From: Desulfurivibrio sp.
Lineage (GTDB): Bacteria; Desulfobacterota; Desulfobulbia; Desulfobulbales; SURF-16
Direction of reading: 5' to 3'
Length of the DNA: 64,000 nucleotides
Assembly (NCBI GenBank): GCA_003605035.1
Contig: QZKJ01000113.1
Span: 1-64,000, forward strand
Below, piece after piece: positions 1 through 35,606 of this stretch; position 1 is the stretch's first letter; every line of letters starts with the position of its first letter. A model generated the notes under the pieces. It did not search any database. It was not told where the DNA came from and saw nothing but the letters and a program-made list of their open reading frames with translations. The position numbers were made by a program, and so were the translations under genes.

Positions 1-32
1 TGTTCGGCAATCGATGGTGTCGCTTTCTCCAT
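1..32 (-). CDS. 5' end of an unidentified gene running off the left edge
   Basis: Only ten codons (MEKATPSIAE) are visible, read leftward from an ATG at 32-30. A strong ribosome-binding site, GGAGGAGG (36-43 on the complement), lies three bases before the ATG, so the start is credible. The product cannot be named from ten residues. The palindromic sequence just upstream (78-108) would suit an autoregulated transcription factor, for example of TetR type, but that is inference only. Confidence 0.45.
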   Translation of the reverse strand, partial: MEKATPSIAE

Positions 33-77
33 AATCCTCCTCCGAAGGGTGTGATTTTCATTGAAGGATTATGTATA

Positions 78-108
78 TAGTACGCAATTAGAATGAACGT
101 ACGTACTA
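78..108. promoter_or_regulatory. Inverted repeat, candidate operator of the leftward gene
   Basis: TAGTACG at 78-84 is matched by CGTACTA at 102-108, and ACGTACGT at 97-104 is itself a palindrome. The site lies about 45-75 bases before the leftward start codon, where a dimeric repressor would bind. No protein partner can be assigned. Confidence 0.4.
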
Positions 109-228
109 AGTGGACTTCTTAAATAATTTTTTTTCCCGTCACTCTGAGCTGCAAGTCAGCACTGAGAATTTCATGCGCTCGCCCTGCGTTACCGGCAAGT
201 TCATTGACCGGGTCCGCTGAGTTCGGCG

Positions 229-1169
229 TTCTGCAACTAAAAAAACATGATCACCATATACAAAATATTTGAAATATACGGCGTTGATCCAGCCTTGGTA
301 AAACTGGTTCGTCACGGGAATAAGGAAATTTCTATTTATGAGACGTTTCTAAACAATCTCAAGCGGCTCGAAGTGTATCAGAGTTTTCAGAATCCAAATA
401 AATTTGGAAAAGCCAAAGCAATCGCAGTCTTTGCCCCATATTACAAAACGACCGGGATTTTTTTAGGTCTGTGGGACATTAAAGGATGTACAGCAAATTC
501 AGACTTCACGGAAGAAACTCTAGCTCTCTTGAAAGAGAATAAATTGCCTGAGGACTGGTTCAACCATGCCGCAAGATATGATTTACGAAGAAACAATATT
601 CTTGATGACTTATCGGAACGTCTAATCATCGAGTGGGGGGCAGCAACTGTCGCATGGGTCCAATCAAAAGATAAGGAAGTGGTAGAAATTAAAGGGAAAA
701 AATCAATCGGCGGTTTTCAATCATTTAGCTTAGTGGACTTGAATTATCAAGACCTGAAAAAATTAGTACAATTTCCAGATACAAACCTCACTTGGTTGAA
801 GGCTCTATCTTCCGTTAATGGCGTTTACCTAATTAAAGACAAAATATCAGGAAAACTATACGTCGGTTCAGCATACGGTGACCAAGGTATTTACGGCAGG
901 TGGTCTGCCTATGCAAAAAATGGTCATGGAGGTAACTTGGAATTAAAGGGATTAGACCCATCTACTTTTCAGTTCTCAATACTCGAGATCGTCCCAGCAA
1001 CTACGACCGCTGACGGAGTAATTGAATGCGAAAACAGATGGAAAGAGAAGTTGGGGACCAGACAATTCGGATTAAATAAAAACTGATAGCAGAACAAGCG
1101 CATTGAGAAGGACGCGAAGAAGCTCGGCGGCCATGACGGGCCAGGATTTGGGCGCGCCTCTGCGCGGCG
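229..1169 (+). mobile_element. Integron gene cassette carrying a GIY-YIG nuclease gene
   Basis: Cassettes are inserted between the G and TT of GTTRRRY core sites. Here the left junction is G/TTCTGC (228/229) and the right junction is G/TTAGGT (1169/1170). The ATG is only 18 bases inside the left end and the stop codon directly abuts the attC site, which is the usual tight cassette layout. The attC begins with GCAGAAC, the exact reverse complement of the cassette's own left end GTTCTGC, as expected if the two ends were joined in the excised circle. No integrase gene is visible, and I could not find a complete attC to the left of 228, so this could be a lone cassette or the end of an array that lies outside the window. 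Confidence 0.65.
247..1086 (+). CDS. GIY-YIG nuclease domain protein (cassette-borne)
   Basis: This 279-residue protein ends in a GIY-YIG endonuclease-type domain (about residues 188-279). Visible marks are GVY near residue 192, YVGSA near 205, a conserved arginine in YGRW, and a glutamate in ENRWKEKLG, which fit the two tyrosines, Arg and metal-binding Glu of the family. The first 185 residues match nothing I recognise. The family cuts DNA or RNA by a metal-dependent single active site; whether this one is a defence nuclease, a homing enzyme or something else is not visible. The gene is much richer in A+T than its neighbours and lies inside an apparent integron cassette, both signs of horizontal transfer. 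No Shine-Dalgarno precedes the ATG (it follows an A-run), which is common for cassette genes. Confidence 0.85.
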   Translation: MITIYKIFEIYGVDPALVKLVRHGNKEISIYETFLNNLKRLEVYQSFQNPNKFGKAKAIAVFAPYYKTTGIFLGLWDIKGCTANSDFTEETLALLKENKLPEDWFNHAARYDLRRNNILDDLSERLIIEWGAATVAWVQSKDKEVVEIKGKKSIGGFQSFSLVDLNYQDLKKLVQFPDTNLTWLKALSSVNGVYLIKDKISGKLYVGSAYGDQGIYGRWSAYAKNGHGGNLELKGLDPSTFQFSILEIVPATTTADGVIECENRWKEKLGTRQFGLNKN

Positions 1170-1175
1170 TTAGGT
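1089..1175 (+). other. attC recombination site of the cassette
   Basis: An 87-bp imperfect palindrome. The outer boxes are GCAGAAC (1089-1095) and GTTAGGT (1169-1175, fitting GTTRRRY). Inner arms pair GCGCA (1098-1102) with TGCGC (1161-1165) and GAG (1105-1107) with CTC (1158-1160). Two unpaired T residues (1103-1104) sit on one arm only; such extrahelical bases are what orients the folded single strand for integrase. The central 40 bases form the variable loop. Confidence 0.7.
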
Positions 1176-1209
1176 CTCAGCCAATTGCCATTGCCAGCCA
1201 GGGGAGTGA

Positions 1210-1270
1210 GGGGACGGCGTTAGGTTAATAAGATAATGCGTAAATAAACTATTAAACTAACTCCGTCCCC
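1210..1270. repeat. Long inverted repeat, REP/MITE-like
   Basis: GGGGACGG-C-GTTAG-G-TTAATA at 1210-1230 faces its near-perfect complement at 1250-1270 (two differing positions), with about 20 bases between. The form, a GGGGACGG end leading into an A+T-rich stem, resembles REP elements mobilised by IS200-like REP-associated transposases. No such transposase is in the window. The left arm shares the 11-mer CGGCGTTAGGT with the end of the neighbouring attC site. Confidence 0.55.
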
Positions 1271-1605
1271 ATTGCCCGTCCGACATGGCTTTAAGGTTAT
1301 CTCGGGCTTTAGTGGCGCCACTCCTGAGTTATGGTTAAATCTTCAAAAGAATTATGACCTTATGGCATGCAGCCCATGATTCAAATTCATGGAAATCCGT
1401 TAAACCGATTTTCTCAGCAACTATGCCTGATCACGCATAATAACAGCAGCGAACAAGGCGTTGCACATTGACCGCAAGGGGCGGCTTTTTTTGAGCCTTG
1501 CCAAGCATTGGTGTCTACATTGCTTTTTGCAAAATTTCCAGCTCCCTTGCGGCAAATGCACTATTCGGCCCCGCAGGACATGCGAATGAATGAGGGAGCG
1601 TCGTC
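1271..1605. other. Intergenic region with a weak terminator-like hairpin
   Basis: No gene seen. The only structure is nested: CCGC (1472-1475) pairs with GCGG (1481-1484) and is followed by seven T (1486-1492), and CAAGGC (1454-1459) pairs with GCCTTG (1495-1500) outside it. It could end transcription of the cassette or be a decayed attC-like fold (it opens with GAACAAGGC). The following gene has its ribosome-binding site at 1592-1597. Confidence 0.35.
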
Positions 1606-3117: not shown

Positions 3118-3372
3118 ATGTACAAAATAACGTTCAGCAAAAATGCGGATAAGGTTCTTCGCCGGATGCCACGCAATATCGCATTACCCATCGGCAAGAA
3201 AATAAAGGAGCTGGCCGGCAATCCTCATTCGATGCGAAACGTGAAAAAATTAACAAACCATCCCGGGTACAGGCTTCGAGTCGGTGATTGGCGAATCGTT
3301 TACAGCGTCAATGACAATGAACTTTTAATCCATGTCATCAACGTGAAAATTCGAGGGGAGGCATACAAATGA
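3118..3372 (+). CDS. RelE/ParE-family toxin
   Basis: An 84-residue protein with the compact RelE fold signature: basic N-terminal helices (KNADKVLRRMP), then NVKKLTNHPGYRLRVGDWRI, and the strand IHVINVKIRGEAY. Members act as ribosome-dependent mRNA endonucleases or gyrase poisons; the arginines in RLRVGDWRIVY are in the place of the RelE catalytic and substrate-binding residues. Its stop overlaps the antitoxin start by four bases (ATGA), so the two are translationally coupled, with the toxin first as in higBA. No Shine-Dalgarno is present at the ATG and the promoter lies directly before it, suggesting leaderless translation. Confidence 0.9.
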   Translation: MYKITFSKNADKVLRRMPRNIALPIGKKIKELAGNPHSMRNVKKLTNHPGYRLRVGDWRIVYSVNDNELLIHVINVKIRGEAYK

Positions 3373-3740
3373 ATGTTCAAATTATTGAAAAAAACGGAAA
3401 ACCCGAATGGGCTGTTATCCCCTACAGTGAGTATCAGAAACTTCAGGAGGCCCTCGAAGACGCTGAAGATAGAAAAGACATAGAAGAAAATTTCAAGGCT
3501 GTTCAGGAAGGCAAGGAAATAACGGTGCCAGGGGAAGTCACCTTTGCGATACTCGACGGAATGAGCCCAGTCCGTGCATGGAGAGAGCATAAACAGATCA
3601 AAATGAGTGAACTGGCAAAAAAAGTCGGTATCAGTTCAGCCTATCTTTCGCAAATTGAGAACGGCAAAAGAAACCCGACAATCGACACCCTGAAAGCGAT
3701 TGCCAAAGCACTTAACATTGATATTGAGATGCTCATATAA
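3369..3740 (+). CDS. Antitoxin: Phd-like N-terminus plus XRE-type HTH
   Basis: The 123-residue partner of the preceding toxin. The first 35 residues (VQIIEKNGKPEWAVIPYSEY) look like a Phd/YefM-type segment. After an acidic linker, residues 68-123 form an HTH_3 domain (MSELAKKVGISSAYLSQIEN) that should bind the operon promoter. It therefore probably both neutralises the toxin and represses transcription. Fusion of a Phd-like segment to an XRE domain is a known but less usual antitoxin layout. The gene starts inside the toxin stop codon (ATGA). Confidence 0.88.
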   Translation: MNVQIIEKNGKPEWAVIPYSEYQKLQEALEDAEDRKDIEENFKAVQEGKEITVPGEVTFAILDGMSPVRAWREHKQIKMSELAKKVGISSAYLSQIENGKRNPTIDTLKAIAKALNIDIEMLI

Positions 3741-3894: not shown

Positions 3895-4956
3895 ATGAAC
3901 GTGAACCTGGAACTTGGCATCGTTCTTCTCAAATGGACTTCGCAGGTGTTGATCGCCGTGGTCGGGGTCTGGGGTCTGGTCAGCGACCCCTTTGACACGG
4001 ATGCCGCCTCCGGCCGGCGCCGGCTGAACCGGGCCGGCTGGCTCAAGATCGTTTTAATGGCGATCGGGTTTCTGCTCTTTGCCCTCACCGATGCCAATGA
4101 GCGCCGCGCCGCGGAGGCCCAGCGCCAACGCCAGGAGCAACAGATCGCCATGCAGCGGCAGACCGTTGCCGCCCAGGACACCCAGCTGGCCTATCTGCGC
4201 AAGCTCATTCTCCTCCAGTACCGCATGTCGGAGCTGGGCCTCGTGCTTGAATTCCCGAAAAACGTCATGCGGGAGATGTGGAGCGCCATAGAAGGTTACC
4301 AGCCAAAGCCGCCGCAGCTCCAGGCGGACAGAACGCAGCTTGCCTATATCGCGGCCGCCATGCGCGCCGGGACAGCCGTGGTCCGCTTTGACGGAACGGG
4401 CCGCGGCGAGCTGCAGTACAGTCTCAACCGGCCGCAGGGCCTTACCGGCGGCAGAATCACTGAGTCTGAGCCGGCATGGGCGGCCTTTGACGGCGCCTTT
4501 CGCGCCTTGTTTGGCGGCAGATTCGAGATGATGAGCGAGTCGGGACGCACGTTGGTTGATCTTGTCAATCCGGCCTCGCGCACCTCGGTCACCTTTGGGG
4601 GAAATGCGGTTTCGTTCAGCGTCAGGGAGCCTGAGGTGCGCCTGGATGAACTGAGCGGCACGCTGTCGTTTGTCTGCGGCAAGGATGACCTGCTGTTCGT
4701 CATGGAGGAGGCCTTTGACGGCGGCGAAGAGGCGCAGGCCCGGATGGCCGAGAAGATGCACTTCGGCCCGGTAAAGGCCCGCCTGACCTCAAAGGACCCC
4801 AGGGTGCAGTGGGATCAGAAAATCCAGCTTGACTGGCGCCCCGTCATCAGCCGGCGAATTGGCGAGACCGATACCGGCAGGATCTTTGAACTGGGCGAAT
4901 GGCATTCCGGGCCCAGTCCGGTGCAGGCAACCTTTTCCAGGCTGGGGTTTGAGTGA
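3895..4956 (+). CDS. Unrecognised membrane-anchored coiled-coil protein
   Basis: A protein of about 353 residues that I do not recognise. Two hydrophobic segments (about residues 8-28 and 47-65) bracket a short charged loop, followed by a Gln/Arg-rich helix, likely coiled coil (QRQRQEQQIAMQRQTVAAQ), and a soluble domain of about 250 residues rich in beta-type sequence. I start it at the ATG 3895, which has GGTGG five bases upstream; a GTG at 3886 would add three residues. It is flanked by the toxin-antitoxin pair and the efflux operon and shares no overlap with either. The long soluble C-terminus could sense or bind something, but nothing visible says what. Confidence 0.75.
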   Translation: MNVNLELGIVLLKWTSQVLIAVVGVWGLVSDPFDTDAASGRRRLNRAGWLKIVLMAIGFLLFALTDANERRAAEAQRQRQEQQIAMQRQTVAAQDTQLAYLRKLILLQYRMSELGLVLEFPKNVMREMWSAIEGYQPKPPQLQADRTQLAYIAAAMRAGTAVVRFDGTGRGELQYSLNRPQGLTGGRITESEPAWAAFDGAFRALFGGRFEMMSESGRTLVDLVNPASRTSVTFGGNAVSFSVREPEVRLDELSGTLSFVCGKDDLLFVMEEAFDGGEEAQARMAEKMHFGPVKARLTSKDPRVQWDQKIQLDWRPVISRRIGETDTGRIFELGEWHSGPSPVQATFSRLGFE

Positions 4957-5176
4957 GGCCGGCGGCTGAATCGCCGGGGCGGCCGGAAAATTTCCTTTGC
5001 GGAAAAATGAAACTTTTCTTTTAATGATGACTGCGTGGCCGGGAAGAGATAAGATGCCGGGCATTGCCTGGTTATCGTAATGTATTCACAGAGCTATCCG
5101 CCCAGGGAGGCCGGGTGGCTCAAGTTACGATGAGGGATTGCCCCCGTCCCTGACGGTGCTGCCGGAGAGAGTGACA

Positions 5177-6526
5177 ATGATGAGAGCCGTTGTTTTTCTG
5201 CTGGTCGTCGTTTTCTGCAATGCCACGGCCTTGCCCATGGCTGCCGGAGGCGAGAAAGTGATCAGCCTGCGGGAAGCCATTCTGACAAGTTTCTCCAACA
5301 ATCATGAGCTGAAGGGCCGGCAGAGCGCACTTGCGGCCGGCCAGGCCGATATCGGCATTGCCAGAAGCTCCCTGCTGCCTTCGCTGGCCCTCGAGGAAAA
5401 GTTTCAGCGCACCGCCAATCCCACCTATTCCTTCATGTCCAAGCTCAATCAGGAGCGTTTCACCGCCCGGGATTTCGCCATCGACTCCCTCAACAATCCC
5501 GACGAGATCAGCGATTTCCAGACCATGTTTTCCATCGAACAGCCGCTTTTTGTCCGACCGGCGAATATCGGCCTGGCCATGGCGAAAAATCAGCAGGAGA
5601 TAGCCAACCGGGAGTATCAGCGCAAAAAGGAAGAGCTTGCCCTGGAGGTGGTGAAAACCTTTCTCATGGTGCGCACCAGCCGGGAATATGCGGCTGTGGC
5701 GGCAAAAGGGGTGGCTGACGCCAAAGAGCACGTCCGGCTGAGCGAGCTGCGTTTCAACAACGGGCTGGGCCTCTATTCGGATACCCTGCGGGCGCGCACC
5801 GCCCTGGCCGACGCGGAGCAGCAGCTGGTGAGCGCGCAGAAAAATCATGATGTGGCCAAAAAAGGGCTGGGGCTGCTGCTCGGCCTTGCGGACCCGGTGG
5901 ATGCGGGCCAGGAGAAGGTGGAACTGCCGCTCCTGGCCATGGATTACTACACCGAGGCCAGCCTGCAGCGGGAGGATGTCAAGGCCATGGAGGGCCAGCG
6001 GGAAAACGCCAGGAAAAACCTGGCGCTCGCCACCGCCGGCTACCTGCCCACCCTGGGCCTGGCCGGCTCCTATATGCTGAACGACCATAATGTGCCGCTG
6101 GGCTCCGAAGGGGAAAGCTGGCTGGTGGCGGCGGTGCTGCGCTGGCAGCTCTTTGACGGCGCCAAAAGAGAATACGAACGGGTCAAGGCCAGACACCTGA
6201 TCGCTGAGACGGACCAGCATCTGGAGGGCCTGAAAAAGGCGGTGGAATTCAAGGTTTACGAAGCATACCAGTCGGTGGCGGAAACCGGCAAAAATCTGGA
6301 GCTGGCCCGCTCCGCCCTGCTGATGGCCGAGGAGGGGCAGCGCCTGGTGCAGGTCCGCTATGAAAATTCATTGTCGCCCATGATTGATCTGCTAGATGCC
6401 CAGGTGGCCCTTGACCATGCCCGGGCCGTGGTGGTGGCCAGGGAAAATGATCATGAACTGGTCAAGGCCAGACTCAGCTATGAGAGCGGCACCATTCTCC
6501 ATGATCTGCAGGTTGACAGCCAATAA
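5177..6526 (+). CDS. TolC-family outer membrane efflux protein
   Basis: About 449 residues after a start at ATG 5177, which has GGAGAG nine bases before it. A signal peptide (VVFLLVVVFCNATALPMAAG) is followed by two outer membrane efflux protein repeats, each opening with long amphipathic helices (SLREAILTSFSNNHELKG and REDVKAMEGQRENARKNLAL). Trimers of this family form the beta-barrel and periplasmic tunnel of tripartite exporters. It is the first gene of an operon: the adaptor starts 15 bases after its stop, and the pump overlaps the adaptor. Putting the outer membrane factor first is common in delta-type and other anaerobic proteobacteria. Substrate cannot be told from sequence. Confidence 0.93.
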   Translation: MMRAVVFLLVVVFCNATALPMAAGGEKVISLREAILTSFSNNHELKGRQSALAAGQADIGIARSSLLPSLALEEKFQRTANPTYSFMSKLNQERFTARDFAIDSLNNPDEISDFQTMFSIEQPLFVRPANIGLAMAKNQQEIANREYQRKKEELALEVVKTFLMVRTSREYAAVAAKGVADAKEHVRLSELRFNNGLGLYSDTLRARTALADAEQQLVSAQKNHDVAKKGLGLLLGLADPVDAGQEKVELPLLAMDYYTEASLQREDVKAMEGQRENARKNLALATAGYLPTLGLAGSYMLNDHNVPLGSEGESWLVAAVLRWQLFDGAKREYERVKARHLIAETDQHLEGLKKAVEFKVYEAYQSVAETGKNLELARSALLMAEEGQRLVQVRYENSLSPMIDLLDAQVALDHARAVVVARENDHELVKARLSYESGTILHDLQVDSQ

Positions 6527-7666: not shown

Positions 7667-10600
7667 AAGAGATCGGCATTTCCGGCGTTATCGCCAGGGC
7701 GTTCATCAAATCCAAGCTGACGCCGCTTATCGTGCTCGCCTCCCTGCTGCTCGGCGTGTTCGCCGTGCTGGTCACCTCCCGGGAAGAGGAGCCGCAGATC
7801 GTCGTGCCCATGATCGATGTCATCGTCACCTATCCGGGGGCCACGGCCCAGGAGGTGGAAGAGCGCGTCACCAAGCCGATGGAGAAGTTTCTGTGGGAGA
7901 TCAAGGGGGTGGAATATATCTACTCCATTGTCAAGCCCGGCATGAATCTGACCATTGTCCGTTTCTACGTGGGCGAGGACATGGAAAAAAGCCTGGTCAA
8001 TCTGCACACCAAGTTGATGTCGCACTATGACCGCATCCCCGCCGGGGTCTCCCAGCCCCTGGTCAAGCCCAAGTCCATTGATGATGTACCGATCCTCACC
8101 CTGACCCTATGGAGCGAGCAGGCGCACTATTCCGGTTACGAACTGCGGCGGGTCGCGGTGGAGGTGGCCGACGAGCTGAAGAAGGACATGAATGTCTCGG
8201 AGTTCTCGGTGATCGGCGGCCAGAGGCGGCAGGTGCGGGTTGCCCTTGATCCGGCCCGGCTCCGGGCTTATCACATCCCGGCCGTGCAGATCATGCAGAC
8301 CCTGCAGCAGGCCAATTTCGTGCTGCCGGCCGGCGCCTTTCCGGCAGGTAACGGCGAGTTCCTGGTTGAAACCGGGGGATTTCTGGAAAATATCGACGAG
8401 GTGGGGAAGGTGGTGGTGGCGGTGGCCGGTAATCGCCCCGTCTACCTGGAGGAGGTGGCCGATCTGTCCGACGGGCCGGAGGAGCCGGCTGACTATGTGT
8501 TCATGGGCAGCGGGCCGGCGGCAGCTGACAAGGATCTGCCCTCGCTTGCCGGGCCAAGGGAGGCGGTGACCATCGCCGTGTCCAAGAAAAAAGGGGCGAA
8601 CGCCAGCACGGTGGCGGGTGAGGCCCTGGCCAAGATCGAACAGCTGCGCGGCGGCATCCTGCCCGGCGACGTCCAGGTAACGGTCACCCGCAATTACGGC
8701 GAGACCGCCAGGGATAAATCCAACGAGCTGCTTGATCACATGCTGATCGCCACCATCTCGGTCATCATCCTCATGGCGCTTACCTTGGGCTGGCGCGAGT
8801 CCCTGGTGGTGGCCGTGGCGGTGCCGGTGACGCTCGCGCTGACGCTTTTGATCAACTATCTCTACGGCTACACCCTGAACCGGGTCACCCTGTTTGCCCT
8901 GATTTTTTCCATCGGGATTCTGGTGGATGACGCCATCGTGGTGGTGGAGAACATCCACCGCCATTTCAAGCTGCACGGGGTCAGCACGCGCACCGCCGTG
9001 CAGGCGGTGGACGAGGTGGGCAGCCCGACCATTCTGGCCACCTTTGCCGTCATCTTCGCCCTGCTGCCCATGGCCTTTGTGCGGGGCCTGATGGGACCCT
9101 ACATGCGGCCCATCCCGGTGGGGGCCTCGGCCGCCATGCTCTTTTCCCTGCTGGTGGCCTTTATCGTCAGCCCCTGGCTCAGCTACAAGGTGCTCAAGAA
9201 TGTGAAGAGCGACGGGCCGGGCGAGGCGGAAACCGGCCGGCTGCATGATCTCTATGAGCGGATCCTGGGACCGCTGCTCGATCACCGCGGTAAACGCCTG
9301 CTCATGCTGCTGCTGGTCGGCGGGCTGCTTTTCCTGTCCATGCTGCTGGTGCCCTTCAAGGCGGTGACCGTCAAGATGCTGCCCTTTGACAACAAGAGCG
9401 AGCTGCAGGTGATCATCGACATGCCGGAAGGGGTCAGCCTGGAGAGAACCGCCGCCGTGGCTCGTGAACTGGGCGATTATCTGCAGACCGTGCCGGAAGT
9501 GACCGATTTCCAGACCTACATCGGCACGGCGGCGCCCTACAACTTCAATGGCCTGGTGCGCCATTACTTTCTGCGCCAGGGCAGCAACGTGGCCGACATC
9601 CAGGTGAATTTCGTCGGCAAGGGCGAGCGGCAGCTGCAGAGCCATGAGCTGGCCACCAGGCTGCGGCCCGCGCTCAAGGAGATCGGCGACCGTTACGGGG
9701 CCCGTCTCAAGGTGGCGGAAATCCCGCCCGGCCCGCCGGTGCTGAGCACCCTGGTGGCCGAGGTCTACGGACCGGACCTGGAGCGGCAGATCGAGATAGC
9801 CAAAGAGATCAGAAATATTTTCGAGACCACCGACGGGGTGGTTGATGTGGACTGGTTCGTGGAGGATGATCAGCCTAAATTCACCTTTAGCGTGGACAAG
9901 GAAAAGGCGGCCTACCATGGCATCAGCACCACGCTGGCGGCCCAGAGCCTGCGCATGGCCCTGGGCGGCACGGCGGCGGGCCTGGTCCATTATGAGAAGG
10001 AGAAGGAGCCGGTTGAGCTGCTGCTGCGCGCCTCCCTGCCCGAGCGGGCCGGCATTGCCGCCCTGCAGGAGGTGAGCGTGCCGGCCGCGGACGGTTCCCT
10101 CATCCCGCTGGCCGCCTTGGTGCGCATCAGCCAGGGCGTGGAAAACAAGACCATTTATCATAAGAACCTCAAAAGGGTAACCTATGTCACCGGTGATGTG
10201 GCCGGCGCCATCGAAAGTCCGGTTTACGCCATCCTGGAGATGAAGGAGCGGATCAGCCGGCTCGCCCTGCCGGAGGGCTATGAGCTGCAGCAGTATTCAG
10301 CCGTGCAGCCGTGGCTGGAGACCAAATACGCCATGAAGTGGGACGGCGAATGGCACATCACCTATGAGGTGTTCCGTGATCTGGGCATGGCCTTTGCCGC
10401 CGTGCTGGTGCTGATCTATATCCTGGTGGTGGCCTGGTTCCGCAGCTTTGTCACCCCCCTGGTGATCATGGCCCCCATTCCCCTTACCCTGGTGGGCATT
10501 CTGCCCGGCCACTGGCTGTTTAACGCCTTTTTCACCGCCACCTCCATGATCGGCTTTATCGCCCTGTCCGGCATTATCGTCCGCAACTCCATCCTGCTGG

Positions 10601-34847: not shown

Positions 34848-35606
34848 TCAATCCTTGATCGCCACGAAGGAGGCGAAGTTAAACCACTGGAAAAAGGTTT
34901 CCACCTGGCTGAAGCCGGATTTCTGCAGGAGTTCGCTGTTTTCCCGGATGGAAAACGGGATGAGGATATTTTCCAGGGCCGCCCGTTTCCGGGCGATTTC
35001 CGTCTCCGAATACCCCTGGCTGCGTTTGAAATCGTGGTAAAAATCGATAAAGGCCCGGTTGATTTCAAGATCGTGGCAGATGATTTTTTCACTGATGATC
35101 AGGACTCCGCCCGGCTGCAGGGCCTGGTGGAGACGGCTGAGGAAACTCTGGCGGGCCATGGGGCGGATGAACTGCAGGGTGTAGTTGAGAATGCAGGCCC
35201 CGCAGGGCGCAAGCTCCACGGTGGCAATATCGCCATGGATGAAACTGATGGCGGCCGGTCTGGCCAGCATCTCGGTCTTCAGTCTGGCCTTGTCCAGCAT
35301 GGCGGGCGAGTTGTCAATGCCGACAAATTCCAGCTCGCTCGCCGCCATGCGCCGGGAGAGTTCCAGCAGGGTGGTGCCGGTTGAACAGCCCAGGTCGTAA
35401 ATCCGGTCTCCCTGGTGCACAAACCTGGCCAGCAGGGTGGCCATCATGTCAATCACCTGGTGGTAACAGGGGACCGAGCGCTGCAGCATGTCATCAAAAA
35501 CTTCAGCGACCCGGGAGTTGAAGGTGAAATCAGCAGGGGCCTGCGGATCCTGATAAATGTTGTCTCTGCTCATGGTGAGGAAGTTAAGTGGTTTTTTTTG
35601 CGGCAA
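34848..35606 (-). CDS. cmoA: Carboxy-S-adenosyl-L-methionine synthase CmoA
   Basis: A 252-residue enzyme that makes carboxy-SAM from SAM and prephenate for CmoB. The signature FNSRVAEVFDDMLQRSVPCY and the SAM loop IYDLGCSTGTTLLEL are clear, with FIHGDIATVELAP and LNYTLQFI further on. Two starts are possible. A TTG at 35606 has AGAGGA five bases upstream, placed right after the surE stop. An ATG eleven codons later (MSRDNIYQ) fits the family N-terminus but has no ribosome-binding site. I take the TTG. Confidence 0.93.
   Translation of the reverse strand: MPQKKPLNFLTMSRDNIYQDPQAPADFTFNSRVAEVFDDMLQRSVPCYHQVIDMMATLLARFVHQGDRIYDLGCSTGTTLLELSRRMAASELEFVGIDNSPAMLDKARLKTEMLARPAAISFIHGDIATVELAPCGACILNYTLQFIRPMARQSFLSRLHQALQPGGVLIISEKIICHDLEINRAFIDFYHDFKRSQGYSETEIARKRAALENILIPFSIRENSELLQKSGFSQVETFFQWFNFASFVAIKD

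Follow-up and report, generated by a model that had tools for sequence, protein, structure and literature searches.

A Uzume-family GIY-YIG nuclease gene very probably carried as an integron gene cassette in Desulfurivibrio

Near the very beginning of contig C8 of a Desulfurivibrio genome (118 contigs, 4.22 Mb), a lone nuclease gene lies between two integron-like junctions, and the question that it raises is whether it is indeed a gene cassette and what such a cargo could do for its host. The DNA analysed, called the window below, is the first 64 kb of C8 and starts at its base 1. Contigs of this genome are given C numbers and other sequences L numbers. Residues 1–279 of the gene product align with positions 2–278 of the 278 in the PADLOC model for UzuA (PDLC03973), the single protein of the Uzume defence system, and we regard the product as a UzuA family member with near certainty. 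The G+C content of the gene, uzuA, is 0.396 (window, 0.570), and its start codon follows 19 nt after the left box begins. Of the 118 differences between this gene and L011, 82 are at third codon positions, a sign of selection at the protein level.

Boundaries of the cassette and its attC site

The features of the locus, all on the forward strand, are as follows.

57–186, +: end of a multi-copy interspersed repeat, present at 13 places in the genome including the window
187–234, +: right half (L' and R') of a preceding attC, assigned by eye, with R' GTTCTGC at 228–234
229–1169, +: very probable gene cassette, from G^TT to G^TT (7/7 box match; homology boundary at 227)
247–1086, +: uzuA, 279 aa, almost certainly a Uzume phage-defence nuclease (PADLOC UzuA PDLC03973, E 2.9e-83)
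1089–1175, +: attC assigned to the cassette, with R'' GCAGAAC, GGAC with an extrahelical A in L'', L' CGCGCCTCT and R' GTTAGGT
1169–1270, +: degenerate array tail, with a second junction, GGCGTTAGGT, that ends at 1225, and a half-attC inverted repeat at 1210–1223 / 1256–1269, by eye

A cut between G and TT at both junctions gives a cassette of exactly 229–1169, the extent already proposed in the preliminary description. The left box (GTTCTGC, 228–234) is the exact complement, in seven of seven positions, of R'' (GCAGAAC, 1089–1095), a self-match that had likewise been noticed beforehand and that was equalled in 11 of 1000 flank shuffles when up to 75 nt on either side of the gene were considered. 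Of the GTTRRRY form that had been claimed for both ends, only the right one is an example (R', GTTAGGT, 1169–1175), whereas the left box has pyrimidines at bases 4 and 5. DNA homology to L011 and L012, as seen by blastn, begins at 227, which is the junction, with none before it. A plasmid search at the DNA level with window 1–1300 gave no match, a plasmid search with 1085–1228 alone gave one record (E 0.1), and an Rfam scan of the window reported a single tRNA only.

On the left, copies of the interspersed repeat (97–99%) were found on C68, C4, C93, C35 and C15, all of which stop at query position 186–187; those on C68, C15, C4 and C35 are at contig ends, and that on C93 is at 87–189. The multi-copy nature of 57–186 explains the contig edge, and the repeat cuts the preceding attC. 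What is left of this attC has CCGCTGAGTT..CGTT in common with the attC of C78 and GGGTCCGCTGA..GTTCTG with that of C76 (both by eye), and no training site reached at least 13 of 22 positions in an ungapped test of the left half attC. A longer left attC at 92–234, whose GTT ranked 15 of 1418 in a hairpin scan, was rejected: since 57–186 is a multi-copy repeat, the hairpin is taken as chance and only 187–234 is kept as attC. On the right, the half-attC arms that lie inverted in window 1210–1269 (GGGGACGGCGTTAG / CTAACTCCGTCCCC) are probably array remnants. Downstream of the array, window 3118–3740 holds a gene pair for a ParE-like toxin and an HTH antitoxin.

Within 1089–1175, L'' (AGAAGG-A-CGCG) is placed by eye opposite L' (CGCG-CCTCT), with its extra A in the same GGAC register as in other attC sites, and the centre matches the C78 attC in 16 of 17 bases, the maximum for 60 shuffled queries being 15. 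Folded alone, the region did no better than shuffles. In circular form, the bottom strand gave 21 end-to-end pairs (equalled in 34 of 1000 shuffles in which the boxes were left intact), the top strand was unremarkable (273 of 1000), and neither strand had a folding energy better than that of shuffles. In the hairpin scan of the window, the rank of the GTT at 1169 was 115 of 1418. The preliminary description had named failure of this site to score as an attC as a ground for refutation, and with our two home-made covariance models, R1 (17 sites, window left out) and R2 (25 sites), the outcome went against the cassette: neither reported a match at 1089–1175, and the best score within it was −0.4 bits. 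Elsewhere in the window, R2 gave weak minus-strand matches at 10518–10572 (E 0.3) and 35517–35565 (E 0.72). R1 recovers just 13 of its own 17 training sites at E ≤1 in 160 kb, so that its miss at 1089–1175 is still compatible with an attC there; it also finds three untrained sites, one of which, L013:1215–1286, is directly 3' of the uzuA of L013. Because the models miss sites that are supported by their boxes, for instance both sites of L012, we take the negative result to reflect a divergent or worn attC.

How worn the site may be is a question in itself, as the array could have decayed to the point where the attC is degenerate and uzuA has ceased to be a mobile cassette. The two silent models, a fold that does not rise above shuffles, the half attC to the left and the remnants to the right of the cassette would all fit such decay. 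The left box and R'' of the cassette nevertheless still match in every position, the bottom strand retains its end-to-end pairing in the circular form, and at E ≤1 R1 also overlooks four of the 17 sites that it was trained on, both L012 sites among them. We consider decay a serious possibility, if a rather doubtful one.

Integron machinery and recurrence of uzuA in cassettes

Contig C33 encodes an integron integrase (TIGR02249; C33:819–1766; 430.8 bits against a cut-off of 265). Diverging from this gene are a presumed attI, a first cassette and, at C33:153–215, an attC. Over the whole Desulfurivibrio genome, R2 reported nine attC-like sites at E ≤10, of which seven had served for training and two, on C35 and C69, had not. 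A second UzuA, 35% identical, is encoded on C16; a copy (128 bp, 86%) of the attI region of C33 precedes it, and an attC at 6189–6247 (an R2 training site) closes it off. The segment C16:4677–6247 consists of an attI copy without integrase (none was found beside it), the second UzuA, a 197-aa ORF and the attC. Being directly after the attI copy, this UzuA is in the first cassette position, which in an integron is usually the expressed one. A third attI-like site, with 3 mismatches, was seen at C108:9620–9643; the gene after it encodes a type II DNA methyltransferase.

We counted 12 near-full-length UzuA loci (the window, C16, L011, L012, L013, L018, L019, L020, L021, L022, L036 and L035/L050), leaving out L014, whose gene is disrupted by an insertion, and the partial matches L023, L024, L037, L038 and L039. 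All 12 aligned members match PADLOC UzuA. Evidence of an attC or attI adjoins uzuA in eight of the 12 (the window, C16, L011, L012, L013, L035/L050, L019 and L022). Outside these 12, L026 was the one relative among those on plasmids, phages and viral contigs that was searched for attC, and it gave no match. The attC sites of L019 and L022 are absent from every training set, and beside the uzuA of L018, L020, L021 and L036 (4/12) no trusted attC was found. The match between the boxes is complete (7/7) in four of the 12 loci, namely the window, L012 (GTTCTGC/GCAGAAC; 3 of 1000 shuffles), L050 (GTTGGGC/GCCCAAC; 10 of 1000) and L019 (GTTCGCC/GGCGAAC; 7 of 1000). Since these four full matches involve three sets of letters, the box pair covaries. 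Lower counts were obtained for L018 (6), L011, C16, L022 and L036 (4 each), L020 (3), and L013 and L021 (0). For L022 and C16 the presumed true box lies beyond the 75 nt tested and matches in 6 of 7 positions each (by eye); the right end is gone in L011 and the left-end match in L013.

Relatives at 66–90% identity occur in records of Desulfospira, Desulforapulum and Melioribacteraceae, and a full TIGR02249 integrase above the cut-off was found in four of the four genomes with these relatives. None of five congeneric genomes has uzuA, and the downstream DUF2254 gene had a relative in just one of these five, at 39% identity, so that they offered no empty site for comparison. On viral contigs, a single-sequence scan gave no UzuA relatives and a profile scan gave 21 UzuA loci. 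Among phages and plasmids, UzuA-like genes were seen in two Klebsiella phage records and 199 Klebsiella plasmid records, one of them in Klebsiella phage ST13-OXA48phi12.3 (L111:2917–3753). In Desulfospira joergensenii, an ORF with an HNH-like motif (L011:4474–4929) is directly 5' of uzuA and, with an attC at 4923–4989, is apparently a cassette as well. The uzuA relative of L014 (4774–5224) is interrupted by an insertion with an ACAGACA/TGTCTGT palindrome that is also present in L043, from the same genome.

From these comparisons, uzuA appears to recur as a cassette in several unrelated bacteria. For the locus under study, self-matching boxes here and at three other UzuA loci, an integrase and attC sites on other contigs, and relatives flanked by attC bear out the earlier view of an integron cassette, and we hold that the locus is very probably an integron gene cassette, which would presumably be mobile.

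The UzuA protein and its N-terminal domain

Two domains can be distinguished in the protein.

247–672, +: N-terminal domain, residues 1–142, predicted PUA/ASCH/YTH-like modified-base reader (AlphaFold models; VIA-align)
817–1059, +: GIY-YIG catalytic domain, residues 191–271 (Pfam PF01541, E 9.4e-8)

The second of these agrees with the GIY-YIG nuclease announced in the preliminary description. Residues Y194, Y205, R218, H227, E262 and N277, whose roles in GIY-YIG catalysis we assume, are invariant in all 12 aligned sequences. The N-terminal half, which had been called unknown, is covered by the full-length UzuA family match, and a PUA/ASCH/YTH-like fold is predicted for it. AlphaFold modelled the whole protein with pLDDT 82.2 and pTM 0.56, and residues 1–164 alone with pLDDT 86.1 and pTM 0.82, with the same N-terminal elements as in the whole model. 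The best structural match of the domain was the C-terminal domain of PD-T4-3 (9u75, residues 128–255), with Z 7.2 for the whole model and 7.0 for the domain alone (116 aligned, rmsd 3.9); at Z of about 7 and 14% identity, the tool warns, a match may be a mere common arrangement. Further neighbours of both models were ASCH, YTH, EVE-like and McrB N-terminal domains. A sequence profile of the domain found no PUA-like structure, and Pfam has no family in this part of the window protein. From the models, the domain would be a reader of modified bases. PD-T4-3, now called CMoRE, is likewise a defence made up of one gene; it is a GIY-YIG enzyme of type IV that degrades 5hmC/5ghmC DNA, and its C-terminal domain binds 5hm-dCTP (PMC12923530).

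Proposed mode of action and comparison with known systems

As a whole, we find it probable that the cassette carries uzuA and would be mobile via IntI, and that UzuA would be a modification-dependent (type IV-like) nuclease. With IntI supplied from another contig, the cassette would be excised and inserted at its attC in the form of a single-stranded hairpin. A search for sigma-70-like promoters gave matches at shuffle level only, and the cassette, having no obvious promoter, would need one from outside. The N-terminal PUA-like domain would bind a modified base of phage DNA that enters the cell, and this DNA would then be cut by the GIY-YIG domain at the C-terminus, both the target base and the cleavage being predictions that build on the models. 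Taken separately, the proposal of UzuA as a restriction nuclease that depends on modification and has no partner methylase is given, in our estimate, slightly less than an even chance. With modified bases as targets, a lone gene without methylase or antitoxin could be transferred as a cassette without killing its new host. The predicted reader domain thus suggests how UzuA could tell phage from self, and it leads to a direct and cheap question, namely whether UzuA cuts 5hmC or otherwise modified DNA.

Conditional activation would also fit a single-gene defence without methylase, and at the sequence level nothing ties the N-terminal domain to base reading. UzuA might then be an abortive-infection nuclease: once this domain had sensed a protein or signal of the phage, nucleic acid of host and phage alike would be cut by the GIY-YIG domain. 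However, the structural neighbours of the domain are mostly readers of modified bases or nucleic acids, and CMoRE, the nearest architecture, acts directly and not via abortive infection (PMC12923530); we judge abortive infection unlikely. We find it very improbable that UzuA serves as a GIY-YIG nuclease of the homing or DNA-repair type, with the cassette as a selfish passenger. Its GIY-YIG part does resemble I-TevI (structural Z 8.7; PDB sequence match E 1.6e-4), but a homing-endonuclease model reaches E 0.0048 on the same protein against 2.9e-83 for the UzuA model, and the N-terminal domain with its invariant residues is kept in all 12 aligned members. Of the two functions, defence or homing, that had been left side by side for the cargo, it is defence that is supported.

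Returning to UzuA as a modification-dependent nuclease, its likeness to CMoRE consists in both being single-gene defences that combine GIY-YIG with a second domain of similar predicted fold. The order is reversed, in that the sensing domain of CMoRE is C-terminal and the predicted reader of UzuA N-terminal. CMoRE has a GIYxY motif (PMC12923530), whereas the window protein reads GVYLI and does not have its third tyrosine, and no sequence similarity was found between the second domains. Tentatively, and with somewhat less than even confidence, we suggest that Uzume could be a CMoRE in reversed order, and that, since a self-sparing nuclease that works alone requires no partner, it would be captured time and again by integrons of several phyla.

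What was known before is the defence gene uzuA; what is new is the integron carrier, its recurrence and a testable mechanism. A review gives the mechanism of Uzume as unknown (PMC12926258), and Uzume systems of the Bacillus cereus group are mostly plasmid-borne (PMC11811056). Our literature searches for Uzume and UzuA, in which sources were seen in part, found no paper on integron carriage or mechanism. The carriage of defence genes in integron cassettes is established (PMC12444791). A class 4-like integron of Aeromonas has a GIY-YIG cassette, orf6, which is likewise a GIY-YIG gene in a cassette, is not named Uzume in the part of the text available and is likened here by description only (PMC10609294). 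The Uzume system of PADLOC is also a single gene, with a full-length match and the same length (278 positions), and differs from the present case in that uzuA is here carried as an integron cassette. Phage-defence genes as integron cassettes are reportedly also the subject of work by Getz, Darracq and Kieffer in 2025; those cassettes reportedly resemble ours in holding a defence gene, with other genes and in other hosts. With the repeated capture of uzuA, the view of integrons as stores of defence genes would reach further than Vibrio and clinical integrons.
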